NCBI GenBank assembly: GCA_023264995.1
Contig: JAHFUR010000040.1
Coordinates: 1 to 39,666, forward strand
Source: Acidimicrobiia bacterium
GTDB lineage: Bacteria; Actinomycetota; Acidimicrobiia; Acidimicrobiales; AC-14
DNA length: 39,666 bases
Direction: 5' to 3'
In this document: positions 6,956 through 24,428 of the stretch, in pieces
Position numbering within the stretch: the first letter of the stretch is position 1
Layout of the letters: each line of letters opens with the position of its first letter
Made by a program: the position numbers and the translations under genes
The notes under the pieces: generated by a model
Told to the model about the DNA's origin: nothing
The model's database searches: none
Seen by the model: only the letters and a program-made list of their open reading frames with translations

Positions 6956-9900
6956 CCGCCAACGGGCTCACCGTCCACCGGGCCGAGCGGGCCGACGTGC
7001 TCGTCGATGCCCTCGGCGATGTCGTGGGGGCCGGCCTCGACGACCCGCTGGAGACCGAGGTGGTCTCGGTGCCGACCCGCGGGGTCGAGCGCTGGCTCAC
7101 CCAGCGCCTGTCCGCCCGGCTCGGCGTGTCCCCCGGCCGGGCCGACGGCGTCTGCGCCAACGTCGCCTTCCCCTTCCCGGGGCGCCTGATCGGCGGGGCG
7201 GTTGCCGCAGCCTCGGGGATCGACCGTGATGGCGACCCATGGCTGCCCGAGAGGGCGGTGTGGCCGCTGCTCGCCGTCCTCGACGGCTGCATGGGCGAGC
7301 CCTGGCTCGCCGCGCTGGCCGGCCACATCGGCGCCGGCGGCGGCGTTCTCCGGTCCCGCCGGTTCGGCGCCGCTCGCCACCTCACCGACCTCTACGACCG
7401 CTACGCAGTGCACCGGCCGGGCATGCTCCGGGCCTGGGCCGGAGGCGCCGACATGGACGGGGCCGGCGGGCCGCTCCCCGCCGACGCGGCGTGGCAGGCC
7501 GAGCTGTGGCGCCGCCTGCGGCGCCACATCGACGAACCGAGCCCGGCGGAACGGCTCGATGCCGCATGCACCCGGCTGGAGGCCGACCCGGCGCTGGCCG
7601 ACCTCCCCCGACGGCTGTCGATCTTCGGCCTCACCCGCCTCCCCGCCAGCTACCTGCAGGTCCTGCGGGCACTCGCCGCCCATCGCGAGGTGCACCTCTT
7701 CCTGCTCCACCCGTCGCCCGCGCTTTGGGACCGGGCGGCCACCGTCGCCGGCGCCGGCGCGGCCGGTCACGGCGGCGTCCGCCGCGCCGGCGACCCGACC
7801 GCCCGGCTGGCGCGCCACCCGCTGCTGGCCTCATGGGGCCGTGACGCCCGGGAGATGCAGCTCGTCCTGGCGGGTGGCGACCGGCCCGCCGCCGACCGCC
7901 ATCACCCCGTCGCCACCGAGGCCCCCACCACCCTGCTCCAACGCATCCAGCACGCAGTTCGCGCCGACTTGGCCCCACCGGGTCGGCCCCTCGCCGGCCA
8001 GCCCGACCGCCGCCCCCCGCTCGACCCCACCGATCGCAGCATCGAGGTCCACGCCTGTCACGGCCGGGACCGCCAGGTCGAGGTGCTGCGCGACGCCATC
8101 CTCCACGCCCTGCTCGACGACCCCACGATCGAGGCTCGCGACGTCATCGTCATGTGCCCCGACATCGAAGCGTTCGCGCCGATGATCCACGCGGCCTTCG
8201 GTGCCGGCGACCCGTCCGACGACGCTGACGACGCCGGCGCGGGCGGCCCGCCGGGCGCCCCGGTCGACCTTCGGGTCCGGTTGGCCGACCGGTCACTCCG
8301 TCAGACGAACCCGGTCCTCGGCGCGGTCTGGAGCCTCCTGGGCCTGGCCGACGCCCGGGTGACGGCGTCGGAGGTCCTGGACTTCGCCGGCCGCGACCCC
8401 GTCCGCCGGCGCTTCGCCTTCGACGACGACGACCTGGCCCGCATGAACGAGTGGGTCACGGCCACCGGCATCCGGTGGGGCATCGACGCCGGCCACCGGG
8501 CCCCGTTCCAGCTCGAGGCGGTGGCGCAGAACACCTGGCAGTCCGGCCTCGACCGCATCCTCGTCGGGGTGGCCATGGCCGACGAGGACCAGCGCATGGT
8601 GGGGGGCGCGCTCCCGCTCGACGATGTCGACAGCGGCTCCATCGACCTGGCCGGGCGCGTCGGCGAGCTCGTCGACCGGCTCCGGGCTGCCCTCGACGCG
8701 CTGGCGGGGCCGGCGACGGTCGCCGAGTGGGTCGGCGCCGTCGACGACGCGGCCCGCGCCCTTACCACCACCACCGATGGCGACGGTTGGCAGGCCACCC
8801 AGCTCCGCGGGCTCCTCGACGGCGTGCTGGCCGAGGCCAACCTCGGCGGTACGCCGAGCGGGGCGGTGCTCCAGCTCCAGGAGTTCCGGTCGCTCCTTGC
8901 CGACCGCCTGCGCGGCCAGCCGACACGGGCCAACTTCCGGACCGGTCATCTGACCGTGTGCACCCTCGTCCCGATGCGCTCGGTGCCCCACCGGGTCGTG
9001 TGCCTGCTCGGCCTCGACGACGGCGCGTTCCCCCGCAAGACCGAGCCCGATGGCGACGACCTCGTGCTCGTCGAGCCCCATGCCGGCGACCCCGACGGGC
9101 GCCACGAGGACCTCCAGCTCCTGCTCGACGGCCTGCTGGCGGCCACCGGACGGCTGGTGATCACCTACACCGGCCGCGACGAGCGCACCAACGCCGAACG
9201 CCCGCCCGCAGTACCGGTTGGCGAGCTGCTCGACGTCGTCGACCGCACCGTCAGGGTCGACGGCGGGGGTGCCCGGGCCCGTGACCGCATCACTGTCCAC
9301 CACCCGCTGCAGCCCTTCGACATCCGCAACTTCACGCCGGGCCGGCTGGTGCCCAGCCGACCATGGAGCTTCGACACCGTGGCCCTCGACGGCGCCCGGG
9401 CCCTCGCCGGCGAGCGCCGCGCACCGGCGCCGTTCCTGGCCCGTCCCCTCCCGCCGGCGCCCGTCGAGGTCGTCGAGCTCGACCAGCTCGTGCGCTTCGT
9501 CCAGCACCCGGCGCGGGCCTTCCTCCGCCGGCGGCTGGGCATCTCCCTGGGCGACTGGACCGAGGACATCGTCGACGCCCTCCCCGTCGAGCTCGACGCC
9601 TTGGAGGCGTGGGCCGTCGGCCAGCGTGTGCTCGACGCCCGGCTCGCCGGCGCCACGATGGCGGCGTGCGTCGCCGCCGAGCGGGCACGCGGCCCGCTCC
9701 CGACCGGCGCGCTCTCCGAGCGGGTGCTGGGCCGCATCCGGGCCCAGACCGACGGGCTCCTGGCCGCGGCGGCGGCCGAGGTGCCCGCCGGCGAGCCCGA
9801 CAGCATCGAGGTCAACGTCCGCCTCGACGACGGGCGTGCTGTGGTGGGAACGGTGCCCGGGGTGGTGGACGGCGTGGCCCGCACCGTCACCTACAGCCGG

Positions 9901-10425
9901 GTGGGGCCCAAGCACCGCCTGGCCGCGTGGGTGCGGTTCCTGGCCCTCGCCGCGTCGGGGCCCGCCGCCGGCCACGACGTGGTGACGGTCGGCCGGCGCC
10001 GGCCCGATGGCGCCAGCTACACGGAGATCACCGTCGCCCGGCTGGCCGCCGGCGCCGTCGACCAGGCCGCGGCCGGCGCCCTGCTCCACGACGTGGTCGA
10101 CCTCTTCGACAGGGGCGGGTGCGAGCCGCTCCCCCTCTACTGCGCCACCTCGGCGGCGTACGCCAACGCGGTGGCCATGGGCCGCAACGGGGTGGCCGCC
10201 GCCCGCTCGGCATGGGAGAGCAGCCGCTTCCCGGCCGAGGATGCGGATCTCGAGCACCAGCTCGTCCTCGGCGGCAGAGTGCCCGTCGAGCACCTGCTCG
10301 CCGGCGCCGCGGCCGCCGGCGAGGTCGGTCCGGGGTGGGACGCGGGAGAGCCATCGCGGTTCGGCCGCTACGCCCGTCGGCTGTGGGGCCCCCTGCTCGC
10401 CGCCGAGTCGGTCGAGGACCGGTGA
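6952..10425 (+). CDS. recC: RecC, exodeoxyribonuclease V gamma subunit
   Basis: 1157 residues from the GTG at 6952 that overlaps the kinase stop (GTGA); the reading frame extends further upstream, but that part lies inside the kinase gene. The N-terminus (LTVHRAERADVLVDAL, then SVPTRGVERWLTQRLSARLG) is characteristic of RecC. FGLTRLPASYLQVLRALAAH, IEVHACHGRDRQVEVLRDAI and VPMRSVPHRVVCLLGLDDGAFPR are further conserved blocks. RecC lacks an active helicase site; it binds the 3' tail and recognises Chi in the RecBCD nuclease-helicase that processes double-strand breaks. Length is close to the E. coli protein (about 1120). Its stop overlaps the recB start by GTGA, giving stoichiometric translation. 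Confidence 0.96.
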   Translation: MTANGLTVHRAERADVLVDALGDVVGAGLDDPLETEVVSVPTRGVERWLTQRLSARLGVSPGRADGVCANVAFPFPGRLIGGAVAAASGIDRDGDPWLPERAVWPLLAVLDGCMGEPWLAALAGHIGAGGGVLRSRRFGAARHLTDLYDRYAVHRPGMLRAWAGGADMDGAGGPLPADAAWQAELWRRLRRHIDEPSPAERLDAACTRLEADPALADLPRRLSIFGLTRLPASYLQVLRALAAHREVHLFLLHPSPALWDRAATVAGAGAAGHGGVRRAGDPTARLARHPLLASWGRDAREMQLVLAGGDRPAADRHHPVATEAPTTLLQRIQHAVRADLAPPGRPLAGQPDRRPPLDPTDRSIEVHACHGRDRQVEVLRDAILHALLDDPTIEARDVIVMCPDIEAFAPMIHAAFGAGDPSDDADDAGAGGPPGAPVDLRVRLADRSLRQTNPVLGAVWSLLGLADARVTASEVLDFAGRDPVRRRFAFDDDDLARMNEWVTATGIRWGIDAGHRAPFQLEAVAQNTWQSGLDRILVGVAMADEDQRMVGGALPLDDVDSGSIDLAGRVGELVDRLRAALDALAGPATVAEWVGAVDDAARALTTTTDGDGWQATQLRGLLDGVLAEANLGGTPSGAVLQLQEFRSLLADRLRGQPTRANFRTGHLTVCTLVPMRSVPHRVVCLLGLDDGAFPRKTEPDGDDLVLVEPHAGDPDGRHEDLQLLLDGLLAATGRLVITYTGRDERTNAERPPAVPVGELLDVVDRTVRVDGGGARARDRITVHHPLQPFDIRNFTPGRLVPSRPWSFDTVALDGARALAGERRAPAPFLARPLPPAPVEVVELDQLVRFVQHPARAFLRRRLGISLGDWTEDIVDALPVELDALEAWAVGQRVLDARLAGATMAACVAAERARGPLPTGALSERVLGRIRAQTDGLLAAAAAEVPAGEPDSIEVNVRLDDGRAVVGTVPGVVDGVARTVTYSRVGPKHRLAAWVRFLALAASGPAAGHDVVTVGRRRPDGASYTEITVARLAAGAVDQAAAGALLHDVVDLFDRGGCEPLPLYCATSAAYANAVAMGRNGVAAARSAWESSRFPAEDADLEHQLVLGGRVPVEHLLAGAAAAGEVGPGWDAGEPSRFGRYARRLWGPLLAAESVEDR

Positions 10426-13400
10426 GCGGGACCGTGGTCACGCCGTTCGACCTGTCCGGCCCCCTGCCGACCGGGGTCACCGTCCTGGAAGCCAGCGCGG
10501 GCACCGGGAAGACGTTCACCATCGCCGCTCTGGCGGCGCGCTACGTGGCCGACGGCCTACCCATCGAGCGGCTGCTGATCGTCACGTTCACCCGTATGGC
10601 CACCAGCGAGCTGCGCGACCGGGTCCGCGACCGGATGGTGTCGGCCGAGCAGGGCCTGGCCCGCGCCCTCGCCGGCGAGCCGCCCGAAGCCGGTGACGCG
10701 GTCGCCGGCCTGCTGGCCACCGGCCCGCCCGACGAGGTCGCCCGGCGCCGGGACCGGCTCAGCCGTGCCCTCTCGGATTTCGACGCCGCCACCATCGCCA
10801 CCACCCACGGCTTTTGCCAGCACGTGCTCAACGGCCTCGGGGTGGCGGGCGACGTCGAGCGCGACGCCCGGTTCGTCGAGGACCCCCGGTACCTGGTCGA
10901 CGAGGTCGTCGCCGACCTCTACGTCCGGAAGTTCCACGCCGGCGGCCCGCCGCCGTTCACCCTGGCTGAGGCCCGGACGATCGGCGAGAGCGCCGTGTCC
11001 AACCCGGACGCCTTTCTCGCGCCCGACGGCGCCGAGCCCGAGAGCCCGGCGAACCTGCGCTGGCGGCTGGCCCGCCGGGTGCGCGCTGAGGTCGACCGCC
11101 GGCGCCGGTTGGCCGCGGTCCTGACCTACGACGACCTCCTCACCCGCCTGCGCGACACCCTCAACCACCCGGCCCGGGGCGACGCCGCATGCCGCCGCCT
11201 CCGCGCCCGCTACCGGGTGGCGCTGGTCGACGAGTTCCAGGACACCGATCCCGTGCAGTGGGAGATCATGCGCCGGGCCTTCGCCGAGCCGGGGACGGGG
11301 GCCACCCTCGTCCTCATCGGCGACCCCAAGCAGGCCATCTACGCCTTCCGGGGCGCCGACGTGTACGCCTACCTGGCCGCGGCCCGCATGGCGGGCACCC
11401 AGGCCACCCTCGACGTCAACTGGCGCAGCGACCAGGGCCTGCTCGACGCCCTCGACGCCCTCTTCGCCGGCGCCCGCCTGGGCCACCCGGGCATCGTCTA
11501 CCGCGACGTGCACGCCGCGGCGGCGGCCCGCAGCCCGGGGCTGCACGGCGCGCCGGTGGACGTGCCCCTACGGGCCCGCGTCCTCCACCGTGACGACGAC
11601 CTCGTCCGGCTCACACCGAAGGGGTACCTGCCGGTCGCCGGCGCCCGGTCGTGCATCGCCGGCGACCTGGCCGCCGACGTGGCCCGGCTCCTGTCGTCGC
11701 GTGCGACGATCGCCGGCGCCGGCGTCCGTCCCGGCGATGTCGCCGTGCTCGTCCACCGCAACCGCGATGCCCTGGCCGTACGCGACGCCCTCGAGGCGGC
11801 CGGCGTGCCCGCGGTGGTCAACGGCGCCGGCAGCGTGTTCGCCACCGACGCCGCCGGCCAGTGGCTACGGCTCCTGGAGGCGCTGGAGCGGCCGACGTCG
11901 GCCAGCCCCGCCCGGGCCCTGGCGCTCACGCCGTTCCTCGGCTGGGACGCGGAGCGGGTGGCCACCGCCAAGGACACCGAGTGGGAGGAGGTCCACGCCC
12001 GGCTCCACGGCTGGGCCGCCGCGCTGCGCCTCCGCGGGGTGGCGGCGCTGTTCGAGACCATCTGCCGACGGGAAGGCGTGCCCGGCCGGATCCTGACGGG
12101 GGCCGGCGGCGAACGCCAGCTCACCGACCTCCGCCACGTCGCTCAGCTCCTGCACACCGTCGCCACAGCCGAGCAGCTCGGGGTCACCGCTCTGGCCGGG
12201 TGGCTCCACCTGCGCATCGACGAGGCCGGCGAAGACGACGACTCCGAGGACCGCAGCCGGCGCCTCGAGTCCGACGCCGAGGCCGTCCAGGTCCTGACCG
12301 TCTACCGGAGCAAGGGCCTCGAGTTCCCCGTCGTCTACTGCCCGTACCTCTGGGACCCCGGCTGGATCTTCGAAGAACGACCACCCGAGTTCCATGACCC
12401 GGCTGCCGGCGACCGGCGCACGATCGACGTCGGCGGCGGCACCACCCGGTGGAAGGGTTCGGGCCGTCAGCACCTGGTGGAGCGCCGGGGCGAGGAGCTG
12501 CGGCTCCTCTACGTCGCGCTCACCCGAGCCCGCCACCAGGCCGTCGTGTGGTGGGCCGGGTCGTGGGACAGCCGCGACTCCGCCCTGTGCCGGTTGCTCT
12601 TCTCCCGCGACGCGGACGGCAACGTCGCGGCGGACGGGAAGGCGCCGCCCGACGACGCCCAGGTGGTGGCCCGCCTCGACGAGCTGGCGGCGAGCGCACC
12701 CGGGCGCATCAGCGTCGAACGGGTCGACGGTGGCGCCGGCGCGGTGTGGACGAAGCGCCATGCGGCCCCGCTGGCGCTCTCCGCCGGCCGCTTCGACCGG
12801 TCTCTCGACCCCCAGTGGCGGCGGACGTCCTACAGCGGCATCACCTCGGGCGCCCACGACGCCTGGGTCGCCAGCGAGGCCGAAGAACCGCCGCGGGCCG
12901 ACGAGGTGATCACGGGGCCGCTCCTCGCACCCGCCTCCGCCGACGGCGGCGACCCGGTGCCGGCGCTGCTCTCCGCCATGCCGGCCGGTGCGGACGTCGG
13001 CACGTTCGTCCATACCGTCCTGGAAGGGGCCGACTTCGCCGCGCCGGACCTCAGTACTGAGCTGGCCGCGTCGTTCGGCCGAGCGCGTGCGCGCGACGCG
13101 GTCGACGTCGGCGACCCGGAGGTCGTGGTCGCCGGCCTGCGCGCCGCACTCGAGACGCCGCTCGGGCCCCTCGTCGGGGACCTGCGGTTGCGAGACGTGC
13201 ACCGGGCCGACCGCGTGGACGAGCTGGGCTTCGAGCTCCCGCTAGCCGGCGGCGACGTACCGGCAGGCGCCGTCGCCGTCGAGGACATCGGCCGCCTCCT
13301 GGCCGCCCACCTCCCCGCCGGCGACCCCTTCGCCGCCTACCCCGAGCGGCTCCGGGACCCTGCGCTCCAGACCGGCCTCCGGGGCTACCTCTCGGGGAGC

Positions 13401-13775
13401 CTCGACCTCGTGCTCCGCACGCCCGACCGGCGCTACGTCGTCGCCGACTACAAGACCAACCGGCTGGGCGCCGCCGGCGAGGCGTTGACCGCTTGGCAGT
13501 ACCGGCCCGCGGCGCTGCTCGACGCCATGTACGCCGCCCACTACCCGCTGCAGGCGGTGCTGTACACCGTCGCCCTGCACCGCTACCTCCGCTGGCGGGT
13601 GGCGGGCTACGACGCCGGGCGCGACCTGGCCGGCGTGCTGTACCTGTTCGTGCGGGGCATGACCGGGCCGCAGACGCCCCGGGTCGACGGCCAGCCGTGC
13701 GGGGTGTTCTCGTGGCGCCCGCCGGCGGTGCTGGTCGAGGCCCTGAGCGACCTCCTCGACCGGGGGTCAGTATGA
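10422..13775 (+). CDS. recB: RecB, exodeoxyribonuclease V beta subunit (helicase-nuclease)
   Basis: 1117 residues from the GTG overlapping the recC stop. It is a UvrD/SF1A helicase: Walker A EASAGTGKTFT (Lys30), FTRMATSELRDRVR (motif Ia), VDEFQDTDPVQWEIM (motif II), IGDPKQAIYAFRGAD (III), LDVNWRSD (IV), TVYRSKGLEFPVVY (V) and LLYVALTRARHQAVVWW (VI). The C-terminal nuclease domain has His864, Asp995 (SLDLVLRT) and Asp1009/Lys1011 in VADYKTNRLG, matching the RecB-family H...D...DxK site. It is therefore predicted to be a fully active 3'-5' helicase and nuclease. It sits between recC and recD in a coupled operon. Confidence 0.96.
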   Translation: MSGTVVTPFDLSGPLPTGVTVLEASAGTGKTFTIAALAARYVADGLPIERLLIVTFTRMATSELRDRVRDRMVSAEQGLARALAGEPPEAGDAVAGLLATGPPDEVARRRDRLSRALSDFDAATIATTHGFCQHVLNGLGVAGDVERDARFVEDPRYLVDEVVADLYVRKFHAGGPPPFTLAEARTIGESAVSNPDAFLAPDGAEPESPANLRWRLARRVRAEVDRRRRLAAVLTYDDLLTRLRDTLNHPARGDAACRRLRARYRVALVDEFQDTDPVQWEIMRRAFAEPGTGATLVLIGDPKQAIYAFRGADVYAYLAAARMAGTQATLDVNWRSDQGLLDALDALFAGARLGHPGIVYRDVHAAAAARSPGLHGAPVDVPLRARVLHRDDDLVRLTPKGYLPVAGARSCIAGDLAADVARLLSSRATIAGAGVRPGDVAVLVHRNRDALAVRDALEAAGVPAVVNGAGSVFATDAAGQWLRLLEALERPTSASPARALALTPFLGWDAERVATAKDTEWEEVHARLHGWAAALRLRGVAALFETICRREGVPGRILTGAGGERQLTDLRHVAQLLHTVATAEQLGVTALAGWLHLRIDEAGEDDDSEDRSRRLESDAEAVQVLTVYRSKGLEFPVVYCPYLWDPGWIFEERPPEFHDPAAGDRRTIDVGGGTTRWKGSGRQHLVERRGEELRLLYVALTRARHQAVVWWAGSWDSRDSALCRLLFSRDADGNVAADGKAPPDDAQVVARLDELAASAPGRISVERVDGGAGAVWTKRHAAPLALSAGRFDRSLDPQWRRTSYSGITSGAHDAWVASEAEEPPRADEVITGPLLAPASADGGDPVPALLSAMPAGADVGTFVHTVLEGADFAAPDLSTELAASFGRARARDAVDVGDPEVVVAGLRAALETPLGPLVGDLRLRDVHRADRVDELGFELPLAGGDVPAGAVAVEDIGRLLAAHLPAGDPFAAYPERLRDPALQTGLRGYLSGSLDLVLRTPDRRYVVADYKTNRLGAAGEALTAWQYRPAALLDAMYAAHYPLQAVLYTVALHRYLRWRVAGYDAGRDLAGVLYLFVRGMTGPQTPRVDGQPCGVFSWRPPAVLVEALSDLLDRGSV

Positions 13776-13798
13776 GCGACAACCGGAGGTCGGTATGA
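13772..13798 (+). CDS. Eight-residue minicistron bridging recB and recD
   Basis: An ATG at 13772 overlaps the recB stop as ATGA, runs eight codons (MSDNRRSV) and stops at TGA 13796-13798, which overlaps the recD ATG at 13795 as a second ATGA. The recD ribosome-binding site (CGGAGG) lies inside it. The sequences around the two starts are similar (GTCAGTATGAGC and GTCGGTATGAGC, 23 bp apart), so it may have arisen by a short local duplication. Ribosomes finishing recB could re-initiate here and then again at recD. The peptide itself probably has no function. Confidence 0.5.
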   Translation: MSDNRRSV

Positions 13799-15714
13799 GC
13801 CCCGACCGGGCGGCCGCCGCCCTCGACCACTTCGATGTCCGGGTGGCCCGCAGCGCCGGGGGGCTCCTGCGCACGTTCAACGATGCCGGCGCCCTCACCG
13901 CCGCCGACGTCCACGTGGCCAGCTGCCTGGGCCGCCTCGGCCCCGAAGTCGACGAGCACGTCCTTCTCGGCGCCGCGTTCGCCGTCCGGGCCCCGCGGCT
14001 GGCCCATGTCTGCATCGACCTGGCGACGGTCCGCGACAGGGTCAGCGTCGACAGCGACCTCCCGGTCGACATCCGGTCGCTGCCGTGGCCCGAGCCCGGC
14101 CCGTGGGCGGCCGCCCTGGCGGCCAGCCCGCTCGTGGCCAGCGGGATCGATGGTCCCCCCGACCGGCCCCTTCGCCTGGCCGGCACCCGCCTGTACCTCG
14201 ACCGCTACTGGCGGGAGGAGCGTCAGGTGGCAGCCGACCTGCGGGCGCGCGGCGCGGTCATGGCGGCCGGCGTCGACCGCACCGTCCTCCGCGCCGGCCT
14301 GGCCCGGCTCTTCCCCGGCCCGGGGCCCGACGACCAGCGGCTGGCCGCGGCGACGGCCGTGCTACGCGGGCTCACCGTCGTCGCCGGCGGGCCGGGGACG
14401 GGTAAGACGACCACCGTGGCCCGGGTCCTGGCCCTCCTCTACGAGCAGGCCGCGGCCGCCGGCGAGCGGCCCCCGCTGGTGGCGCTGGCGGCGCCGACCG
14501 GCAAGGCCGCGGCCCGCCTCGAGGAGGCCGTCCACCAGGAGGCGGCGGGGCTTGACATCGGTAACGACGCCCGGGCCTGGCTGCTCGGGCTGTCGGCGTC
14601 GACGCTCCACCGCCTGTTGGGGTGGCAACCGGGCCGGCGATCCCGGTTCCGGCACGACCGGGCCAACCGCCTCCCCTTTGCGGCTGTGGTGGTCGACGAG
14701 ACGTCGATGGTGCCGCTCACGCTGATGGCCCGGTTGGTCGAGGCGGTCCGGCCGGGGGCGCGGCTCGTGCTGGTGGGCGACCCCGACCAGCTCGCCTCGG
14801 TGGAGGCCGGCGCCGTGCTGGGCGACATCGTCGGCTCCGCCGCCGGCGGGCTCCTGCTCCGCCCACCGGCCCGGGCGGCCGTCGCCGAGGTGACCGGCCA
14901 CGAGGTGCCCGCCTCCGACCCGCCGCCGGCGGCGGCCGTGGCCGACGGCGTCGTCGTCCTCCGGCGCGTCCACCGCTTCGCCGGCGCCATCGCCGAGCTG
15001 GCCTCCGCCGTGCAGCGGGGCCACGCCGACCAGGCCATCGCCGTGCTAGCCGGCAGCCACGACGACGTGGTGTGGCTCCCCGCCGACGCTGGTGGTGCCG
15101 ATGCCCTTGGGCCGGTACGGGAGGCGGTGGTGGCCGCGGGCCGGGCCGTGACCGATGCGGCTCGGGCCGGCCAAGGCCGGGAGGCACTGGCCGCGCTGGG
15201 CGGGTTCCGGCTCCTGTGCGGCCACCGGCGGGGGCCCTACGGCGTGTCGTGGTGGACGGAGCAGGTCGAGCGCTGGCTGGCCGCAGGGGTCGAGGGCTTC
15301 GCCGCCGGCGCCGGTTGGTACGTGGGCCGGCCCGTCCTGGTGACCGAGAACGACTACGGCTTGCAGCTCTACAACGGCGACACCGGCGTGGTCGTGGCCG
15401 GTGCCGCCGGCGGCCCGGCCCGGGCGGTGTTCGAGCGTCGGGGCGAACTGCTCCAGCTCAGCCCGCAACGGCTGGGCGCGGTCGACACCGTCTACGCCAT
15501 GACCGTGCACAAGGCCCAGGGCTCCCAGTTCGACGAGGTCGCCGTCGTCCTCCCTGACGAGACCTCGCCGATCCTCACCCGTGAGCTGCTCTACACCGCC
15601 GTCACCCGCGCCCGCCGGCGCCTCATCCTCGCCGGCGCCGAGGCGACGGTACGAGCCGCGGTCGAGCGGCCCATCACCCGGGCGTCGGGGTTGCGCGAGT
15701 GGCTGTGGGGGTGA
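13795..15714 (+). CDS. recD: RecD, exodeoxyribonuclease V alpha subunit (5'-3' helicase)
   Basis: 639 residues from ATG 13795, with CGGAGG upstream. It is an SF1B helicase: Walker A GGPGTGKTTTVARVL (Lys204), VVVDETSMVPLTLMA (motif II), LVGDPDQLASVEAGAVLGDI (III), and near the C-terminus YAMTVHKAQGSQFDEVAVVL (V) and LLYTAVTRARRRLILAG (VI). The N-terminal 160 residues are the usual RecB-contact region. RecD is the fast 5'-3' motor of RecBCD and restrains its nuclease until Chi. Length matches the family (about 610). It closes the recC-recB-recD operon and is convergent with the next gene, with only 21 bp between stops. Confidence 0.96.
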   Translation: MSPDRAAAALDHFDVRVARSAGGLLRTFNDAGALTAADVHVASCLGRLGPEVDEHVLLGAAFAVRAPRLAHVCIDLATVRDRVSVDSDLPVDIRSLPWPEPGPWAAALAASPLVASGIDGPPDRPLRLAGTRLYLDRYWREERQVAADLRARGAVMAAGVDRTVLRAGLARLFPGPGPDDQRLAAATAVLRGLTVVAGGPGTGKTTTVARVLALLYEQAAAAGERPPLVALAAPTGKAAARLEEAVHQEAAGLDIGNDARAWLLGLSASTLHRLLGWQPGRRSRFRHDRANRLPFAAVVVDETSMVPLTLMARLVEAVRPGARLVLVGDPDQLASVEAGAVLGDIVGSAAGGLLLRPPARAAVAEVTGHEVPASDPPPAAAVADGVVVLRRVHRFAGAIAELASAVQRGHADQAIAVLAGSHDDVVWLPADAGGADALGPVREAVVAAGRAVTDAARAGQGREALAALGGFRLLCGHRRGPYGVSWWTEQVERWLAAGVEGFAAGAGWYVGRPVLVTENDYGLQLYNGDTGVVVAGAAGGPARAVFERRGELLQLSPQRLGAVDTVYAMTVHKAQGSQFDEVAVVLPDETSPILTRELLYTAVTRARRRLILAGAEATVRAAVERPITRASGLREWLWG

Positions 15715-16973: not shown

Positions 16974-18245
16974 GTGAGAACCCGCATCACAGGGCAGGTC
17001 GAGCGACGTGCGGCTCAGTTCGTCGAGACGCTCATGCTCGAGGAACCGGCGATCCTGGTCGAAGGCCCCCGGGGCTCGGGGAAGTCCACCCTCCTGCGTC
17101 GGATCGCCGCGGCTCAAGGCGGTGCACTGCTCGACCTGGACGATCCCGCGACGGCACGGCTGGTGGCCGAGGACCCGTCGGGCCTGGTCGGCGGCCGCCC
17201 GGGGCTGGTGTTCATCGACGAGTACGAACGGGTGCCCGAGGTGCTCTCGGTGGTCAAGCGGGAGGTGGACCGCGACGGGCGTCCCGGTCGGTTCCTGCTG
17301 GCCGGGTCGGTGAGCGGGCGGCTCCTCCCCCTCGGGACCGAGACACTCACCGGCCGGGCCCATCGCCTCGTGCTGCCGCCCTTGTCGGCCGGAGAGGTGC
17401 TGGGTGCGAACGTGCCGTTGCTGCCGCAGCTGTTGGCCACGGGCACGCCCCCGCGGGTCGAGAGCGGTCTCAGCCGTCGCGACTACTTCGACCTCGTCGC
17501 CGCGGGCGGCTACGCCGCGGCACTGGCCCGCCCGACTGACCAGGCGCGGCGGCGCTGGCATACCAGCTACCTGGCCACCGTGGCCGACCGTGATCTTGGG
17601 ACGCTCGTCGAGGTACGCCATCCCGGAGCCCTGGCCACGCTCTACCGTTCCGTCGCCGAACAGACGTCGTCGGTCGTGACCCGCTCGGCCATCGCCCAAC
17701 GGTTGGGCCTGAACCCAGCGACGGCCCGGTCCTACCTCGACCTACTCGTGCGCGTCTTCCTGATCGGGGAGCTACCGGGCTGGACTGTGGGGGTGTCGGC
17801 GAAGGTCGGTCGGCGGCCCAAGCTCCATGTGACCGATACGGGGCTCGGCGCGGCGGCGGTCCGGCTCGACGCAGGCCGCTTGGCCGTGAGCGCCGTCGGG
17901 GGGTCGTTCATGGAGAGCTTCGTGGTCAACGAACTGGCGAAGCAGGTGGCCGTGATCGACGAGCCGCTCGTCCTCGCCCACTTCCGGGACCGATCGGGGG
18001 CGGAGGTGGACGTGGTCGTCGAGCGCGGTGACGGCTCGGTCTTCGCGTTCGAGGTGAAGTCGGCGACCTCCGCCGCGCCCCGTGACGCCTCCGGGCTCCG
18101 CTTCCTCCGAGATCGCCTCGGCGACCGCTTCGTGACGGGGGTCGTCCTGCACACCGGCCCGCTGACCGCCGGCCTCGGGGACCGCTTGTGGGCGATGCCG
18201 ATCGCCGGCCTGTGGGCTGGCACCGAGCACTCGTCACCGGGCTGA
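16974..18245 (+). CDS. DUF4143-type AAA ATPase
   Basis: 423 residues from a GTG at 16974. The N-terminal P-loop domain has VEGPRGSGKSTLLRRIAAAQ (Walker A) and GLVFIDEYERVPEVL (Walker B), with LLAGSVSGRLL as sensor 1. A winged-helix segment follows (SAIAQRLGLNPATARSYLDLLVRVFLI). The C-terminal DUF4143/nuclease-fold part has SFMESFVVNELAKQ, SGAEVDVVVERGDGSVFAFEVKSAT. The E-V-D...E-V-K pattern matches the core of a PD-(D/E)xK fold, though activity in this family is not established. Such ATPases are common, poorly understood and often found in variable regions. It is convergent with the BrxC/PglY-PglZ-like gene (28 bp between stops). Confidence 0.9.
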   Translation: MRTRITGQVERRAAQFVETLMLEEPAILVEGPRGSGKSTLLRRIAAAQGGALLDLDDPATARLVAEDPSGLVGGRPGLVFIDEYERVPEVLSVVKREVDRDGRPGRFLLAGSVSGRLLPLGTETLTGRAHRLVLPPLSAGEVLGANVPLLPQLLATGTPPRVESGLSRRDYFDLVAAGGYAAALARPTDQARRRWHTSYLATVADRDLGTLVEVRHPGALATLYRSVAEQTSSVVTRSAIAQRLGLNPATARSYLDLLVRVFLIGELPGWTVGVSAKVGRRPKLHVTDTGLGAAAVRLDAGRLAVSAVGGSFMESFVVNELAKQVAVIDEPLVLAHFRDRSGAEVDVVVERGDGSVFAFEVKSATSAAPRDASGLRFLRDRLGDRFVTGVVLHTGPLTAGLGDRLWAMPIAGLWAGTEHSSPG

Positions 18246-18273: not shown

Positions 18274-21200
18274 TCAGCCCTCGACGCCGGCCACGCCGAA
18301 GGTCGCCACCGGGACGACGCTCTCTTCGAGCGACGGCCCGCCGTGGCCGTAGCGACCGCCCGGGCCCCGCCCCCACGACCGGCTCTCCCGGAAACCGTGG
18401 TCGGCCAGCACCACCAGCGGCACGCCGGCGGGCAAGGCCTGGAGGGTGGGGACCAGCCGGCGCTCGAGGCCGGCGACCGCCTCGTCGAGCAGGCTGGCGA
18501 CGTCGGACGACGAACGATGGAGAGCCTCGTCGACACCGGTGGCGACAGCCACCGTGATGCGAGGACCGCCGGCAGCCCCGGCCCACAGGTCCCGGAGCGA
18601 GGCCGCCGCGCCATCGCGGTCGACCCCGACGAGCGACGACGCCTCGAAGCCGAGGTGGGCGAACGGCGGGCCGAGGTCGCTGGGCGTCTCCGGCCCGGAG
18701 CCGGCAGCGACCGGGCGGCCCAGGTAGAGCGACGCCATGGCCTCCCGGGTCCGCGTCGGCTCCGGCACCACCGCCCAGGCCTCCCGCAGTGCCCGCCCGG
18801 GCAGGGCGGCCACCAGCAGGGGCCGGAGCCGGAGCCACACGTCGACGCGCATGGCATCGACGACCAGGACCGCCACCCGCTCATGGCGGGCCAGCAGTGT
18901 CGCCATCACGACGCTCCCGACCTCCCAGATGCGCAGGCACCCGGGGAACCCGGCGCCGGCGTGCACGGCGAAGGCGGCGTCGGCGCCGGCCAACGCCCGT
19001 CTCGCAGCCAGGCGCACGGCGTCGAATGTGCCGTCGGAAAGGAGCGACGGCCCCACCGCGGCCAGCTCGGCCCGGCTCAGGAGGGCGGGCACCGGGGCGA
19101 CGCTGGCTGGGTAGATCTCCTCGACCAGGTCCCGGCAGGAGGCGCCGGGCAGGTTGCGCTCCAGGGCGGCCAGGTGGCGGCCGGCACCGAGCAGGAAGGC
19201 CAACGGCGCCAGCTCGGGCTCACCGACCAAGGCGTGGGCGCCGGCCACGGCGGCCAGGTCAAGATCGGCGAGCCGCTCGGCCAGTTGCCAGTCGCCGGCC
19301 ACCCGGCGGGCCAGGTCGTCGACCGCCAGCCGGCACGGATGGCGCAGCAGGTGCTCGCCGGCCAGCACGTCGGCGACGGCCGGCGCCGGCCGGTCGGCCA
19401 GCCGGAGGGCGGCGCCCACCTGGTCGCCCAGCAGGCTGGCCGGGCCGATGCGGGCGTCCAGGTCGACGAGGTCGGCCCGCGCCCCGAGGTCGCCGACGGC
19501 CGCCGCCGCCGCAGTTGCCAGCAGGTCGACCTCGGCGACCAGCGCCGCCGGCAACCACCCCGGGGGGTCGGCGTCGCCCCCGCTGGCCGCCCACCACGCG
19601 GCCAGCCAGAAGCACTCCCCCGCCCGGTCGCCGGGGAGCAGCGCCGCCAGCCGGGGGAACCGGCGACCGAGGAACGCGGCGGTGCCGCTCGACGCGGCCG
19701 CGTCCCGCGCCGGCGCCGAGGGGACGAGGTCGCCCTCGTCGGGCGCCGAGCTGTCGAAGACCTCGACGAAGCTGCCGGCCGACAGGGCGCCGTCGGGGTC
19801 GACCCAGGTCGCCAGCAGGTCGAGCAGCCGGCGCTTGGGGAAGCGCCGGCCGGCCAGGTCGTCACGCAGGCCGGCCAGGTCGCGGCGTACGACGAGCTGA
19901 CCGCCGGTCAGCACGTCGCCGGCGACGGCGCCGAGCGGGCCGGCGAGGAGGTGGGCGACGGCAAGCGGGTCGGCCTTGGCCGGCTCGGCCGCGAGGGCCA
20001 GGAAGGCCCGGAGGTCGTCGCCCACCTCCTGGCGGCCGAGGTCGGTGAGATGCTCCAGCGCTTGCTCCAGCCGGGCGCGCTGCTCGGGCCGGTCGAGCTC
20101 GGCCAGGTGCTCCCGTACACCGCGGTCAGCCATGGCCTCGACGGCCTCGGCGTCGAACGGCGGCCGGGTCTGGCCGATGGCAAAGCCGCAGCTACAGCGG
20201 GGCTTCCAGGACAGCTCGAGGTCGAGGCGCCGGTCGCAGCGGGCCGGGGCCGCAGCGGCGAGGACACGGTCCACCTTGACCCGGTCGTCGCGGACGGCGA
20301 GCGCCCCGATGCGCCCCAGCGCGGCCAGGGCGGTGTACGCCGGAGTCGCCCGGACGGCCGCGACCTGCGCCGTCACCGGCCCCCCGTAGAAGCGCTCGTG
20401 TTCCTCCTTGTACGTCGCGACGTACACCCGCCGGAACTCGCGCTCCATCTCCAACAGCTCGCGGACCCGGTCCTCCGCAGCCAGCCCGAGCACGTCACGG
20501 ACCAGCTTCCGCGCCTCGTCGCGCAGGACGACCAGCCGGCCCTCGGCCGGCAGCGCCAGCTGCGGGTGGGTCAGGTACGAGGCGGCCTGCTCGACCTTGG
20601 CCGCCTCCTCCCGGAAGTACCGGGCGACAGCGGCCACCCGGCGGGCCGCGGCCAACACCGCGTCCGCATCGCCGACAGCTCCCACCAGTGCCCGCAGCCC
20701 AGGGACGGGCGTGAGGTTGACGTCGACCGCGGCCAGCACCGCCTCGAGGGGCCCGAGGTCGGCGGCGGCGGGTTCGGTGACGACGTCGGCCAGCAGGGCG
20801 TTGTCGGCCATGGCGTCCAGACCGGCCCGCACCTGGGCCACGTCGTCACTACGCACGTCGATCCAAGCCCGGGCCCGCTCCCACGCCGCCCGCTGGAGGG
20901 TGGCGTTCCACGGTTCCCACGGCCCCTGACCGACCACCGGACCGAGCGCGGCGAGGGCCTCGCGCCCCGCCGGCTCCAGGAGCTCGGCCGCGGCCAGACG
21001 GTCGGCCGACGTCACCGCCAGGAACGGTTCGGTGAGGGTACGCCGGCCCCGACGCAGTTCGAGCAGCCCAGCCTGCACGCAGCCGTTCAGCACGAGCAGG
21101 GCCTCCGGCTCGGTCAGCCCCACCGGCCCGTCGCCGAGCGCGACCACGACGTCGACCGCGGGCACGGCCTCGACGTCGGGCACCAGGCGCAACGCCTCGG

Positions 21201-23460
21201 CTACCGCCGGGCTGCGGGCCGGGTCCGGCGACAGCACGTGGGCGTCGCCCCGCCGGCGGACGAGCCCCAGGGGCACGAGGTACCCGGCCAGCAACGAGCG
21301 GAGCTGGCCCCGCTCGGCCGCGGCCGCCCCGATGCGCGGCTGGGTCAGCACCTCCGTCACGAGTTGGCGCAACAGGCGTTCGCCGACCAGCTCGCCTCGC
21401 GGGGCGACGTCGCGGTGGAGCGGGTGGAGCCGCGACAGGAGCGGGTCGGCGAGGGGCAGGAGCAGGCGCTCGAAGGGCAGCCCGGCCAGCGACGGCAGGT
21501 CGACCGACGCCGCGCCGGCGCCCGACACGACGGCACCGGAGAAGTAGGCCCGCTGCAGCACCTCCCGGGCCCGGGCCTCGTCGCCGGCCGTGGACCGTTC
21601 GAGGAACTCCACCAGGCCGCCGGCCTCGGTGCGGCCCTCGGCCCGGGCCTGGGCCAGCACCAGCCGTCGGGCGTGCAGCTCGACGGCCACGTCCACGGCC
21701 TCGCCGGTGAGGCGCTGCGGGGCCCAGAGCGTCACCCGCTCGCTCGACGCCGCCAGGGCGACGGCCCGTTCGAGGCCCCCGTCCGCTCCCATCTCCAGCT
21801 CGGCCAGCAGGAGGCACCCCTCGGCGCCGAGCGCCCGGGCCTGAGCGACCAGGGCGGCCACATCGGCCTCGGTCAGCTCGGGGGCCCGCACGGGGACGAC
21901 CAGCAGCGAGCGCTGCGTGTTGTGCCACAGGAACTCGCGCCGGGCCGGGCCGACGTCGGTGAGGAGCTGGAACGGCAACGTGGGCGACGAGCCCAGCTCG
22001 ACCAGCGTACGAACGACCCGGCGGTCGTCCGGCGAGAGCTCGGCCCGCACCTGGGCCTGGCGGGCCAGGGCCACCTCGGCCGCGTCGGCCGTCAGCTCGA
22101 TCGCGTACACGGGGGGCGGGCCGGCCCTGGCCACGACATAGGCGCCGCGGGCGACGATGGGCTCGAGCACCGCCCTTTCGAGGTACGACACGTTGGCCGA
22201 CGGGTCGAGGGCGCTGAGGCGGGTGAGGAGCAGGCTGGCCAGCTCGGTGGCCGTCCGCGGCCGCTCGACGGGCGATGCCTCGATGAGGCACAGCAGCTTC
22301 ACCGCCCGCAGCCCGAGGGCCTGGTCGGCCGGCGCGGCGAGGATCTCCTCGACGGCCCGTTCGTAGTAGGGCACGACCGTCTCGGCCAGGCGCCGGCTCT
22401 CGATGCGCTCCTGGAGGCGGGGCCGGAAGTGGTCGTAGACACGGTCGGGCGTGACCAGCTCCAGGTAGCCCCGCTCCGCCCAAGCGGCGATGCCCGCCGA
22501 CGCGTCACCGCGGAGCTGGCGGCAGATGAAGTCGACGACACCCCGCTGCTGGGAGAAGAGGAACCGCAGCCCTTCGAGCACCGACAGCGTGGCCGGGTGG
22601 ACCGGGTAGCAGCGCTGCAGGCGCTCGGGGGAGACGCCCCATCCCGGGAACGCCGTCTCGATCTCGCGGTGCGCCTTTTCCACCCACGCCTCGGCGCCCG
22701 GCCGGAGCCGCACCAGCCGGCCCCGCACCAGATCCTCCACGTGGCGCATCGTCAGGCCGATCGTCCGGTACCGGTCGCGGATACGGGCCAGCTCGCGCTG
22801 GCTCACGTTGGCCACCTCGTCGATGCTCTCCTGCAGCGCGGCCACGACCACCACCGGCGACTCCCGTGCCCACTCGCCGAGGAACTGCAGGAAGCGCAGG
22901 TCCTCCACCAGCGCCGGGCCCTGCTTGGCCCGGAGGAACTCGCTCAACTCGTCGAGGAGGACGACGAGGCCGGCGCCCCGCTCGCCGGCGCCCGCCAACA
23001 CGTCGTCCCACGCCGCCCGGCGGTTGCTGCTCGACGGCGGCGACGGGTGGCCGAGCGCAGCCCATGCCGCCCCGAGCACGAGGTCCTCGAGCTGCGCCGA
23101 CGCCCGGTGCTCGACCAGGGGCACGGCCACGGCCACGCTCGGTCGCGCCCGGCCGGCCGCCTCCCTGAGATCGGGCCCCCAGGCGTCGACGGAGCCACCT
23201 CCGGCCAGCTCGGCCAGGGCGGCGAGCAGGTGCGACTTGCCCGACCCGAAGTGGCCGACGAGGAAGAAGGCGGCGCCGGTGTCGTGAGCACGGGCGTCGA
23301 GCACCGTCGAGAGGGCGCCGGTAACGTCGGCGGTGAGCACCAGCTCCGACAGGCGGCCGGGCCGCCCGTCGAGACGGACCACCGTCTCCACCGCGGCCAC
23401 CTCGACGAGCTGGTCGATGGTGGGCGGGGCCACGCCCGGCCCCGGTGCCGGCAGGGTCAC
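18274..23460 (-). CDS. BrxC/PglY-like ATPase fused to a C-terminal PglZ domain
   Basis: 1728 residues from the GTG at 23460, overlapping the TPR gene stop (GTGA). The N-terminal ATPase has Walker A LVGHFGSGKSHLLAAL (Lys75) and Walker B GLVVLLDELSEFL (Asp170-Glu171), then YPVHPATLSVLEGL and FSQQRGVVDFICRQL, blocks resembling BrxC/PglY-type (DUF6079-like) ATPases. The middle holds helical and winged-helix-like regions and a possible zinc site (Cys1075, Cys1089, Cys1091). Residues about 1509-1728 form a PglZ domain: VLVVDAMRVDVW, PTRTREAM (candidate nucleophile Thr), GVDEALH, VLADHGF and RYGHGGPSLEESVVPVA carry the metal-ligand motifs of the alkaline phosphatase superfamily. In BREX/Pgl systems these two parts are separate proteins. 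A phage-defence role is inferred; no PglX methylase is nearby. Confidence 0.88.
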   Translation of the reverse strand: MTLPAPGPGVAPPTIDQLVEVAAVETVVRLDGRPGRLSELVLTADVTGALSTVLDARAHDTGAAFFLVGHFGSGKSHLLAALAELAGGGSVDAWGPDLREAAGRARPSVAVAVPLVEHRASAQLEDLVLGAAWAALGHPSPPSSSNRRAAWDDVLAGAGERGAGLVVLLDELSEFLRAKQGPALVEDLRFLQFLGEWARESPVVVVAALQESIDEVANVSQRELARIRDRYRTIGLTMRHVEDLVRGRLVRLRPGAEAWVEKAHREIETAFPGWGVSPERLQRCYPVHPATLSVLEGLRFLFSQQRGVVDFICRQLRGDASAGIAAWAERGYLELVTPDRVYDHFRPRLQERIESRRLAETVVPYYERAVEEILAAPADQALGLRAVKLLCLIEASPVERPRTATELASLLLTRLSALDPSANVSYLERAVLEPIVARGAYVVARAGPPPVYAIELTADAAEVALARQAQVRAELSPDDRRVVRTLVELGSSPTLPFQLLTDVGPARREFLWHNTQRSLLVVPVRAPELTEADVAALVAQARALGAEGCLLLAELEMGADGGLERAVALAASSERVTLWAPQRLTGEAVDVAVELHARRLVLAQARAEGRTEAGGLVEFLERSTAGDEARAREVLQRAYFSGAVVSGAGAASVDLPSLAGLPFERLLLPLADPLLSRLHPLHRDVAPRGELVGERLLRQLVTEVLTQPRIGAAAAERGQLRSLLAGYLVPLGLVRRRGDAHVLSPDPARSPAVAEALRLVPDVEAVPAVDVVVALGDGPVGLTEPEALLVLNGCVQAGLLELRRGRRTLTEPFLAVTSADRLAAAELLEPAGREALAALGPVVGQGPWEPWNATLQRAAWERARAWIDVRSDDVAQVRAGLDAMADNALLADVVTEPAAADLGPLEAVLAAVDVNLTPVPGLRALVGAVGDADAVLAAARRVAAVARYFREEAAKVEQAASYLTHPQLALPAEGRLVVLRDEARKLVRDVLGLAAEDRVRELLEMEREFRRVYVATYKEEHERFYGGPVTAQVAAVRATPAYTALAALGRIGALAVRDDRVKVDRVLAAAAPARCDRRLDLELSWKPRCSCGFAIGQTRPPFDAEAVEAMADRGVREHLAELDRPEQRARLEQALEHLTDLGRQEVGDDLRAFLALAAEPAKADPLAVAHLLAGPLGAVAGDVLTGGQLVVRRDLAGLRDDLAGRRFPKRRLLDLLATWVDPDGALSAGSFVEVFDSSAPDEGDLVPSAPARDAAASSGTAAFLGRRFPRLAALLPGDRAGECFWLAAWWAASGGDADPPGWLPAALVAEVDLLATAAAAAVGDLGARADLVDLDARIGPASLLGDQVGAALRLADRPAPAVADVLAGEHLLRHPCRLAVDDLARRVAGDWQLAERLADLDLAAVAGAHALVGEPELAPLAFLLGAGRHLAALERNLPGASCRDLVEEIYPASVAPVPALLSRAELAAVGPSLLSDGTFDAVRLAARRALAGADAAFAVHAGAGFPGCLRIWEVGSVVMATLLARHERVAVLVVDAMRVDVWLRLRPLLVAALPGRALREAWAVVPEPTRTREAMASLYLGRPVAAGSGPETPSDLGPPFAHLGFEASSLVGVDRDGAAASLRDLWAGAAGGPRITVAVATGVDEALHRSSSDVASLLDEAVAGLERRLVPTLQALPAGVPLVVLADHGFRESRSWGRGPGGRYGHGGPSLEESVVPVATFGVAGVEG

Positions 23461-24428
23461 TCCGTGGGGCCGAGCTTGCGCAGCTCGCCGTAGACCGCGC
23501 CCCGGCGCCCGCCGGCCAGCGGTACCAGCTCCTCCAGCGTCGACCGCAGCTCGTCGAGGGCGCCGCGCTTGCGTTGGAGATGGACGTAGGTCCGGAAGAG
23601 GATCAGATCCTCGGGGTCGGCCAGGAGGCAGGCCCGGAACAACGTGGCCGCCTGCTCGAGGTCGCCGGCCTTGCGCAGGGCGTAGGCCTCCATCTTCCGG
23701 GCGTAGGGGTCGCCATGGAGCTTGCGCCGGGCAGCCCAGGTCTCGGCCGCTTGCTTGTCGTCACCGCCGGCGCTGCGCAGACGGGCCAGCACGGCCAGCA
23801 AGTGGCGGTTGCCCTGGTCCGCAGTGCGCAGGAGCACCTCAACCTCCCGCTCGCGGTCCTCGGGCGCCAGCCGCAGGACCCGGGCCTCGATGAGCTTGGC
23901 GTAGGCGAACTCGTCACCCGGCGCCCGGTCGTGGGCCCGCTCGAACAAGGCCACGGCGTCGTCCTCACGGCCCTCGCGCAGCGCCACGTCGCCGAGGACC
24001 ACCCACGCCGAGCTATCCCCATCGTTCCGCTCGACGGCACGCGACGCTGCTCCGCGCGCCGCTTCGAGCTCGTTGAGCCGGAGATGGCAGCGAGCCAGCT
24101 GCACCAGCGACCACGAGCCCTTGTCGCCTAGAGCATCGGCATCGGAGTACGACCGGGCCGCATCCCGCCACCGCTGCTCCCGGTACCGGAGGTCACCCCG
24201 GACGCGGGCGGTGAACGCGGTCGTACCGGCCAGTGACTCGGCCCGTTCCAGGGCGTCGCCGGCGTCGGCCAGCCGGCGGCGGCGCAGTTGCACTTCAGCC
24301 AGGTGAGCGAGCGCGACCGGGTTGGCCGGCGACCGGGCCAGGACACCCTCGATGGCGATCACCGCCTCGTCGAGCCGCCCCGAGCGCTTGAGCTCGAGCG
24401 CCTCCTCCAGACTGCCCGTGCCCGACAC
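23457..24428 (-). CDS. TPR-repeat protein coupled to the ATPase-PglZ fusion
   Basis: 323 residues from a GTG at 24428. The whole protein is a helical solenoid of tetratricopeptide-like units, for example ALELKRSGRLDEAVIAIEGV, ALAHLAEVQLRRRRLADAGD, AWVVLGDVALREGREDDAVA and EAYALRKAGDLEQAATLFRA. There is no signal peptide, membrane helix or enzyme motif, so it is probably a cytoplasmic scaffold or adaptor. Its stop overlaps the start of the 1728-residue ATPase-PglZ gene by GTGA, which argues for a shared complex and balanced synthesis. It has no counterpart among the core BREX/Pgl components I know, so its role (substrate recognition, sensing or regulation) is open. Confidence 0.85.
   Translation of the reverse strand: MSGTGSLEEALELKRSGRLDEAVIAIEGVLARSPANPVALAHLAEVQLRRRRLADAGDALERAESLAGTTAFTARVRGDLRYREQRWRDAARSYSDADALGDKGSWSLVQLARCHLRLNELEAARGAASRAVERNDGDSSAWVVLGDVALREGREDDAVALFERAHDRAPGDEFAYAKLIEARVLRLAPEDREREVEVLLRTADQGNRHLLAVLARLRSAGGDDKQAAETWAARRKLHGDPYARKMEAYALRKAGDLEQAATLFRACLLADPEDLILFRTYVHLQRKRGALDELRSTLEELVPLAGGRRGAVYGELRKLGPTE

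Follow-up and report, generated by a model that had tools for sequence, protein, structure and literature searches.

The window, meaning the whole 39,666-nucleotide stretch of DNA analysed here, is an entire contig (C78); the genome to which it belongs measures 3.8 Mb, is spread over 81 contigs and is 98% complete. On its minus strand, positions 18274-23460 form a single open frame of 1728 codons with a GTG start and no internal stops, as unbroken as the original prediction had claimed, in which a BrxC-like ATPase is followed by a PglZ part. A gene for a TPR-repeat protein lies directly upstream. The features of the locus, with the basis of each in brackets, are as follows.

18274..23460, minus strand: BrxC-PglZ single-chain fusion gene, 1728 aa (open reading frame; Pfam, PADLOC and NCBIfam; homologues)
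22093..23421, minus strand: ORC/Cdc6-type AAA+ ATPase and the region following it, BrxC fold, residues 14-456 (AlphaFold2, Foldseek, VIA)
19735..22092, minus strand: rest of the BrxC-like part, residues 457-1242 (predicted secondary structure, published BrxC layout, family profile)
20182..20238, minus strand: conserved three-cysteine site, C1075, C1089 and C1091, then GF, residues 1075-1093 (alignment conservation)
19696..19734, minus strand: linker of low predicted order that joins the BrxC-like part to the PglZ part, residues 1243-1255 (AlphaFold2)
18277..19695, minus strand: PglZ part, residues 1256-1728, with a helical connector and a phosphodiesterase/nuclease core (AlphaFold2, VIA, conservation, PF08665)
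23457..24428, minus strand: TPR-repeat protein gene, 323 aa, directly upstream of the fusion (Pfam TPR_19, E 1.8e-18)

The window protein is a true single-chain fusion of BrxC and PglZ. A chimera, a frameshift or an assembly artefact was considered as its source and rejected, since full-length relatives with 54-56% identity occur in three genomes (G039, G051 and G364) and, counting that of the window, 25 complete fusion frames were retrieved. Both halves are present in all 25, the window's frame and 24 others, so BrxC and PglZ are one chain in each of them and not separate proteins. In two close pairs the gene evolves under purifying selection (dN/dS 0.22 and 0.24).

The ATPase part extends to about residue 1242. 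A Walker A-type motif (GHFGSGKSH) is found at residues 69-77 and a Walker B-type motif (VVLLDE) at residues 166-171, and residues 64-316 match DUF6079 (E 2.4e-23), the Pfam family to which BrxC belongs. PADLOC assigns the fusion to BrxC (5e-17), with the BrxC model PDLC02482 as the best for its ATPase, and to SspC (1.6e-10); NCBIfam gives weak matches to the BREX BrxC and PglZ models. AlphaFold2 models were built with alignments of 32 (N-terminal) and 26 (C-terminal) family members. For residues 1-1160 the mean pLDDT is 89.2 and the pTM 0.50, so the placement of domains in this model is unsure. Foldseek ranks BrxC from the BREX system of Acinetobacter first for it (9zll_D, E 1.7e-7), and VIA superposes residues 14-456 on BrxC with a Z of 21.2 over 404 residues, the best row outside BrxC being archaeal Cdc6/Orc1 (Z 14.3). 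Further along, residues 457-1242 are predicted to form, in order, an alpha/beta region, further small domains and long helices, with a strand-helix-helix-strand unit at about residues 1190-1235 closing the BrxC-like part. Comparison of this prediction with the published BrxC domain order (PMC12839542, in part), together with a family profile that matches 11 of 12 unfused BrxC genes past profile position 425, suggests that this stretch, which the fold search barely covered, is BrxC-like as well. Within it, C1075, C1089 and C1091 are invariant in 12 diverse rows (alignment A3) and kept in at least 90% of alignment A5. None of the 12 unfused BrxC genes examined, one of which is truncated by its contig, showed a cysteine site of the form CxCG[FWYL]. 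The three cysteines of the fusion are possibly a zinc site.

The two halves are joined by residues 1243-1255 (residues 114-126 of the C-terminal model), the sole segment of that model with a pLDDT under 50. The PglZ-like part starts at about residue 1256, with the catalytic core from about residue 1527, and the model of residues 1130-1728 has a mean pLDDT of 91.8 and a pTM of 0.78. At the level of sequence, PglZ is the best Pfam family for this part: PF08665 matches residues 1527-1690 at E 4e-4 and 20.8 bits, below its cut-off of 25, and in a whole-genome search it reaches 24.5 alone and 28.7, above the cut-off, with neighbouring frame pieces. Of 26 members, 19 match this Pfam family at E <= 1, and a PDB sequence search with the C-terminal profile returns PorX (2.8e-5) and BREX PglZ (3.4e-5). 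At the level of fold, Foldseek puts PglZ from the BREX system of Acinetobacter at the top (E 1e-9). VIA aligns residues 1414-1724 with PorX (Z 26.4, 290 residues) and residues 1256-1725 with BREX PglZ 9zn5_B (Z 17.9, 431 residues). The latter alignment spans PglZ residues 166 to 755 of 879, which places both the helical connector and the catalytic core in the fusion; no counterpart of the first ~165 residues of BREX PglZ, or of its C-terminal domain, was aligned by VIA. The predicted joining of a BrxC/PglY-type ATPase to a PglZ domain is thus borne out by fold on both sides (Z 21.2 and 17.9), and the C-terminal domain proves PglZ-like when examined by structure.

The metal-ligand motifs of PglZ, all of which had been read from the window alone, are also a property of the family. 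Seven ligand-type residues are present (D1535, T1571, D1644, H1648, D1687, H1688 and H1706); the first four are kept in 26 of 26 rows and the last three in at least 90%, row L029 being cut by its contig. They are conserved in members of all phyla for which the C-terminal part was read. These residues are probably metal ligands, judging from motif order and from the threonine and histidine mutants reported for PglZ of E. fergusonii (PMC12205998, in part) rather than from residue-level superposition.

The compact two-gene locus that had been proposed recurs across phyla. In the window, the stop of the TPR gene overlaps the GTG start of the fusion by four bases (GTGA), so translation of the two genes is probably coupled. 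Of the 32 testable loci, 30, from six named phyla, have a homologous TPR gene next to the fusion; L030, L039 and L113, in which the contig begins in or at the gene, were not counted as testable, and the two loci without it are L049 and L108, the latter with only 0.9 kb of upstream sequence. In 22 loci the gene precedes the fusion in the same orientation (17 of 17 that could be assessed in the window's group, plus L038, L040, L041, L044 and L046), and it is divergent in eight (L042, L043, L045, L047, L048, L050, L123 and L124). Two genes intervene in L041, and the distance is 2.9 kb in L043. The profile used for this count was seeded with 17 of the same TPR proteins; most of the genes had already been found by BLAST clustering and by a profile built on just four Acidimicrobiales-type rows (a label taken to mean genomes of the window's order, e.g. 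L035 = G968). Clustering of neighbouring genes placed the TPR gene in 21 loci, followed by clusters of four and three, so that no other gene was common to more than four fusion loci. In the reverse direction, the TPR gene was found at E <= 1e-40 in 12 of 397 genomes of the order, where 11 adjoin a fusion and the twelfth (G816) lies on a contig that ends within it. Its dN/dS in two close pairs, 0.10 and 0.31, indicates purifying selection. Altogether, the TPR protein would be a dedicated partner of the fusion, most likely a sensor or regulator.

Related fusions were collected at 35 loci from at least seven phyla. Queried with nothing but the window protein, the initial scan of genome contigs returned no relative; relatives were found by scanning with an alignment. 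With an alignment of four rows as the query, GTDB contigs yielded 30 loci: 16 from Actinomycetota (Actinomycetes, Acidimicrobiaceae or Acidimicrobiales), 13 from Deltaproteobacteria (Myxococcota in the taxonomy used for the tree), Fidelibacterota, Deferribacteres, Fermentibacteria, Schekmanbacteria, Acidobacteriota and one unnamed bacterium, and L051, a weak ATPase-only match that was left out. Four further loci, belonging to the same phylum as L043 (full-length in 5 of 247 genomes in all), and L131, a broken copy from the window's order, came from searches of genomes; the window itself completes the set. Duplicate identifiers were dropped (L012 = L025, L013 = L026, L017 = L024, L104 = L043, L105 = L117 = L125 = L048, L106 = L115 = L123, L107 = L116 = L124, L118 = L040, L119 = L041, L126 = L034, L127 = L035, L128 = L036, L129 = L037, L130 = L033, L132 = L032). 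The proteins come in two sizes, a long form, with about 1676-1870 residues when counted from the likely start, and a short form with about 1417-1480.

The distribution of the family is sparse. In the sample of relatives, a full-length fusion was found in 3 of 99 genomes, including the window's own, with a short ATPase-only match in G020, and it was absent from all nine other members of the window's family that were examined. A match occurred in 5 of 395 genomes of the class sample, three of them full-length, and in 21 of 396 of the phylum sample, where only that of the window is full-length. Elsewhere, carriers made up 5 of 247 and 2 of 199 genomes, both samples being centred on carriers. No fusion was found on plasmids (queried with the window protein; two match in the ATPase region only) or in phage records (queried with the L040 protein; one record matches in the ATPase region only), and viral contigs, scanned with two ATPase peptide patterns, gave no relative.

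A maximum-likelihood tree, computed from no more than the first 900 residues of each protein, places 30 fusions on one side of a branch (100/100) and 12 unfused BREX BrxC genes, the one kind of outgroup, on the other. Fragments (L030, L050 and L113) and broken copies (L035 and L131) were omitted. The separating branch is drawn as 1.84 changes per column, and order within the fusions is unsure because the program issued a long-branch warning. Evidence on transfer is mixed: the Actinomycetota fusions form one clade, the Schekmanbacteria row lies among the Acidobacteriota, and G1199 stands apart. No unfused copies were seen inside the fusion clade among the complete genes retrieved, a retrieval that leans to this ATPase because the genome-contig scan used two ATPase peptide patterns. 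The frame is broken into two overlapping frames in L035 (also L127) and into three pieces in L131, which is weak evidence of decay since both breaks may be assembly errors.

The absence of PglX from the flanks, noted in the original prediction, extends to the family. By tblastn, the Type-3 methyltransferase PglXI was found at none of the 35 fusion loci (565 kb, several loci being short contigs), compared with 8 of 9 Type-3 BREX controls. BrxF, searched in the same way with one query that could miss distant iSTAND domains, was found at none of the 35, compared with 9 of 9 controls. A crude scan for methyltransferase motifs, run without a control, detected none at the 35 loci. No conserved BREX genes were seen in the neighbourhoods of the homologues, which had been proposed as the place to look for complete BREX loci. 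Beyond the loci, the Type-1 PglX model had no match at E <= 1e-3 in the window's genome (G000) or in G039 and sub-cut-off matches in G051 and G364. Apart from the fusion itself, no PglZ was found at E <= 1 in the window's genome. Other genomes of the family carry further PglZ genes, for example an 848-residue frame in G1023. The neighbours of the unfused relatives include, by PADLOC, BrxF (L136 and L021) and PglXI (L136, L137 and a cut piece in L021), which identifies these relatives as Type-3 BREX; PDLC02482 is also the best PADLOC model for the three Type-3 BrxC genes scanned.

The wider surroundings were scanned with PADLOC and Pfam on 131 of 138 genes within 4.5 kb, called roughly; four very long genes, two short window genes and one under 80 residues were left out. 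Neighbour families are mostly metabolic, transport or regulatory among the matches listed (25 of 173 Pfam families, without a random-gene control), and defence-type neighbours are few among those listed (25 of 96 PADLOC families, without a control set). They comprise a DpdE/ZorD-like helicase beside the fusion in L025, a HepT/MNT pair between the TPR gene and the fusion in L041, a PDC-S01 match in the window, and single DpdF-, PsyrT- and PD-T4-6-like genes. Sigma-54 response regulators occur near three short-form loci and adjoin the gene pair in L047 and L048; they were rejected as a further partner, being confined to three loci and differing in position. In the window, the gene order shared with a sibling species ends after RecD: the sibling (G001) keeps RecBCD and not the downstream side.

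It is proposed that the TPR protein and the fusion form a two-gene, methylation-independent relative of BREX, an ATP-driven PglZ nuclease with a TPR sensor or regulator, a reading to which we give an even chance. That the system is, in addition, an undescribed two-gene immune class of at least six phyla, without a self-marking methyltransferase and with a covalent link in place of the BrxB bridge, is held a little more tentatively, at just short of even. We infer DNA cutting, ATP-driven assembly, the role of the TPR protein and a purpose in defence as parts of one sequence of events. BrxC of BREX assembles with ATP and binds DNA (PMC13326643, in part), and the BrxC part of the fusion would likewise load on DNA and self-assemble with ATP. 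The next step would fall to the TPR protein: on binding its trigger, be it an invader protein or a host complex in altered form, it would switch the fusion. Finally, PglZ, positioned by the covalent link and not by BrxB or BrxF, would cut DNA or oligonucleotides, and this cutting would stop the invader or the infected cell. In BREX, BrxB has been suggested as the bridge between BrxC and PglZ, and the crystal structure is of BrxB with PglZ residues 1-98 (PMC13326643, in part). The simplest reading is that the covalent link may have made a BrxB or BrxF bridge unnecessary, since the BrxB-binding end of PglZ is unaligned in the fusion, BrxF was not found at the loci and a linker (residues 1243-1255) connects the halves. 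A locus with no methyltransferase would imply a trigger other than unmarked DNA, or a suicidal response; such a trigger could be sensed through the TPR protein or, alternatively, through the middle of the BrxC part, which is variable.

As to function, we give slightly more than one half of the probability to defence or action against invaders and about one third to signalling or some other role in the cell. Defence is favoured by parts drawn from defence systems, in which the BrxC family is known (PMC13326643, in part), by the sparse distribution, by the gene-order break after RecD, and by the HepT/MNT pair in L041 and the helicase beside L025. It is disfavoured by the mostly metabolic neighbours among the matches listed and by the single clade of Actinomycetota fusions. 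Another point against the proposed explanation is that, to our knowledge, a system lacking a methyltransferase has no known mark of self versus non-self. The small number of defence-type neighbours, the mixed evidence on transfer, the negative plasmid, phage-record and viral-contig scans and the two testable loci without the TPR gene weigh against it too.

The strongest rival, by analogy with PorX, would make the pair a non-defence machine, a TPR-controlled AAA+/PglZ phosphodiesterase for nucleotide signalling or stress control. The PglZ domain of PorX cleaves oligonucleotides, and PorX gives the core its top structural score (Z 26.4, compared with 17.9 for BREX PglZ); the metabolic neighbours among the matches listed, the sigma-54 regulators near three short-form loci (directly adjoining in L047 and L048) and the one Actinomycetota clade would suit such a role. 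However, the N-terminal part is of the BrxC family known from defence systems, the alignment with BREX PglZ is longer (431 compared with 290 residues) and covers more of the helical connector, and the occurrence in 12/397, 5/247, 2/199 (the last two carrier-centred) and 1/396 genomes is sparse; this rival is possible but rather unlikely. Less probable still, at about one chance in five, is an abortive or toxin-like pair in which the TPR protein would be the antidote or inhibitor restraining a toxic nuclease until infection. There are only two genes, with a start-stop overlap in the window, they are conserved together and are divergent in eight loci, and BREX PglZ is a sequence-independent nuclease in vitro (PMC12205998, in part), but the ATPase half is far bigger than a simple toxin needs. 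Improbable, finally, is a degenerate or split BREX with a methyltransferase, BrxA and BrxB acting from elsewhere in the genome: the nearest unfused relatives are Type-3 BrxC genes adjoining BrxF and PglXI, G051 and G364 have sub-cut-off methyltransferase matches and family genomes have further PglZ genes (the 848-residue frame in G1023), but Type-1 PglX is unmatched in G000 and G039, the fusion is the only PglZ match at E <= 1 in the window's genome, PglXI and BrxF are found at 0 of 35 loci, and the fusions form a single clade whose one near-constant partner across phyla is not a BREX gene.

The proposed two-gene BREX relative bears on the passage from recognition to restriction in BREX, whose dissection is hampered by the many subunits. 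A natural chain of motor and nuclease, with one small partner and without a methyltransferase in the locus, isolates the BrxC-PglZ step. It would make testable whether BrxC and PglZ suffice for defence, whether ATP drives cutting by PglZ, and how self and invader might be discriminated without marking of the cell's own DNA. A lasting covalent link between BrxC and PglZ also fits the BrxB-BrxC-PglZ core complex that was put forward recently. The new element is the fusion family with its near-constant TPR partner, which may represent a pared-down and so far undescribed defence system. A term search of the main text of PMC12839542 gave no mention of a BrxC-PglZ fusion or a TPR partner, and such a fusion with a TPR partner is not named in the available text of PMC12839542, PMC13326643, PMC12205998 or PMC3710099. 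The literature on PglZ with DUF6079, TPR or fusion held no such fusion either, within a coverage outside which lie supplements, preprints and most subscription papers, so that one could be in print.

Among known systems, the closest comparison is with Type-3 BREX, composed of BrxF, BrxC, PglXI/BrxXI, BrxHII, PglZ and BrxA, in which PglZ is without C-terminal domains (PMC12839542, in part). The fused PglZ also stops shortly past its HGG motif, and PDLC02482 is the best PADLOC model for both ATPases; unlike Type-3 BREX, the fusion family is one chain with a TPR partner, without PglXI or BrxF at 35 loci. The 2026 BREX survey defines BREX-Related (BR) and BREX-Related Capture (BRC) systems, and reports that BrxC and PglZ homologues co-occur outside known BREX (PMC12839542, in part). 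The fusion resembles BR Types 1-3 and BRC in having a BrxC-like ATPase, and BR Type 3 and BRC in having PglZ, outside canonical BREX. BR Type 3 consists of a DUF499 ATPase, a methyltransferase, a helicase, a separate PglZ and iSTAND (PMC12839542, in part), whereas the fusion ATPase hits DUF6079, with no Pfam match to DUF499 at E <= 10, and no methyltransferase or helicase partner is common to the fusion loci. BRC contains HerA/FtsK, STAND, DUF4007 and in part GNAT/TGT (PMC12839542, in part); no HerA/FtsK family was found by Pfam among the 21 window ORFs scanned, and no gene beyond TPR is common to more than four fusion loci. SspBCD is similar in that SspC models match the fusion ATPase (best E 1.6e-10), but the fusion has PglZ attached, and neighbour clustering reveals no phosphorothioation partner common to the loci. 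PorX, which has a CheY-like domain (PMC10951265, in part), shares the PglZ fold and part of the connector (Z 26.4), whereas in the fusion a BrxC-type ATPase precedes PglZ and Response_reg has no match at E <= 10. Measured against BREX of any type, the fusion has a BrxC/PglY-type ATPase (DUF6079 E 2.4e-23, Z 21.2) and a PglZ with metal-site-type residues, but BrxC and PglZ form one chain in the complete frames, and the PglXI and motif searches found no PglX/BrxX at its loci. Because the BrxC-PglZ core is kept and the defining composition is not, the system is filed as BREX-related rather than as BREX.

Close to the end of the BrxC-like part of the fusion lies a cysteine site that is found across the family of fusions, with L instead of F in one row (L027), and it is possibly a zinc-binding site. 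Another gene of the window encodes an ATPase matching a PADLOC candidate family (PDC-S01, E 1.3e-125).

Window 20182-20238 (-): C-x(11-13)-C-x-C-G-F site
Window 16974-18245 (+): AAA_14/DUF4143 ATPase

At other fusion loci, defence-type genes were observed, namely a nucleotidyltransferase/HepT toxin-antitoxin-like pair with the TPR gene on one side and the fusion on the other (L041 8800-9626, +) and a DpdE/ZorD-like Swi2/Snf2 helicase convergent with the fusion (L025 15095-18745, -). A partial second TPR copy starts past the broken fusion in L035 (7193-7471, +), and is perhaps the beginning of a tandem copy of the TPR/fusion pair that was cut by the contig end. Sigma-54 response regulators are located near three short-form fusion loci: in L047 and L048 they immediately adjoin the pair, and in L045 the distance to the TPR gene is about 6.5 kb.

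L045 799-2181: sigma-54 response regulator
L047 7513-8871: sigma-54 response regulator
L048 9022-10401: sigma-54 response regulator

RecBCD genes adjoin the fusion locus in the window, and the gene order shared with the sibling species (G001) runs through RecD and stops there.

Window 6673-15714 (+): RecC, RecB and RecD genes
L021 61-4631 and 5672-14228: Type-3 BREX stretch of genome G124 (start of PglXI, truncated where the contig ends; BrxC; a BrxF-like gene) and the RecC and RecD relatives beside it

RecBCD adjacency, which may be a matter of chance, is common to two BREX-type loci, that of the window and L021, where the Type-3 BREX stretch likewise adjoins relatives of the window's RecC and RecD.
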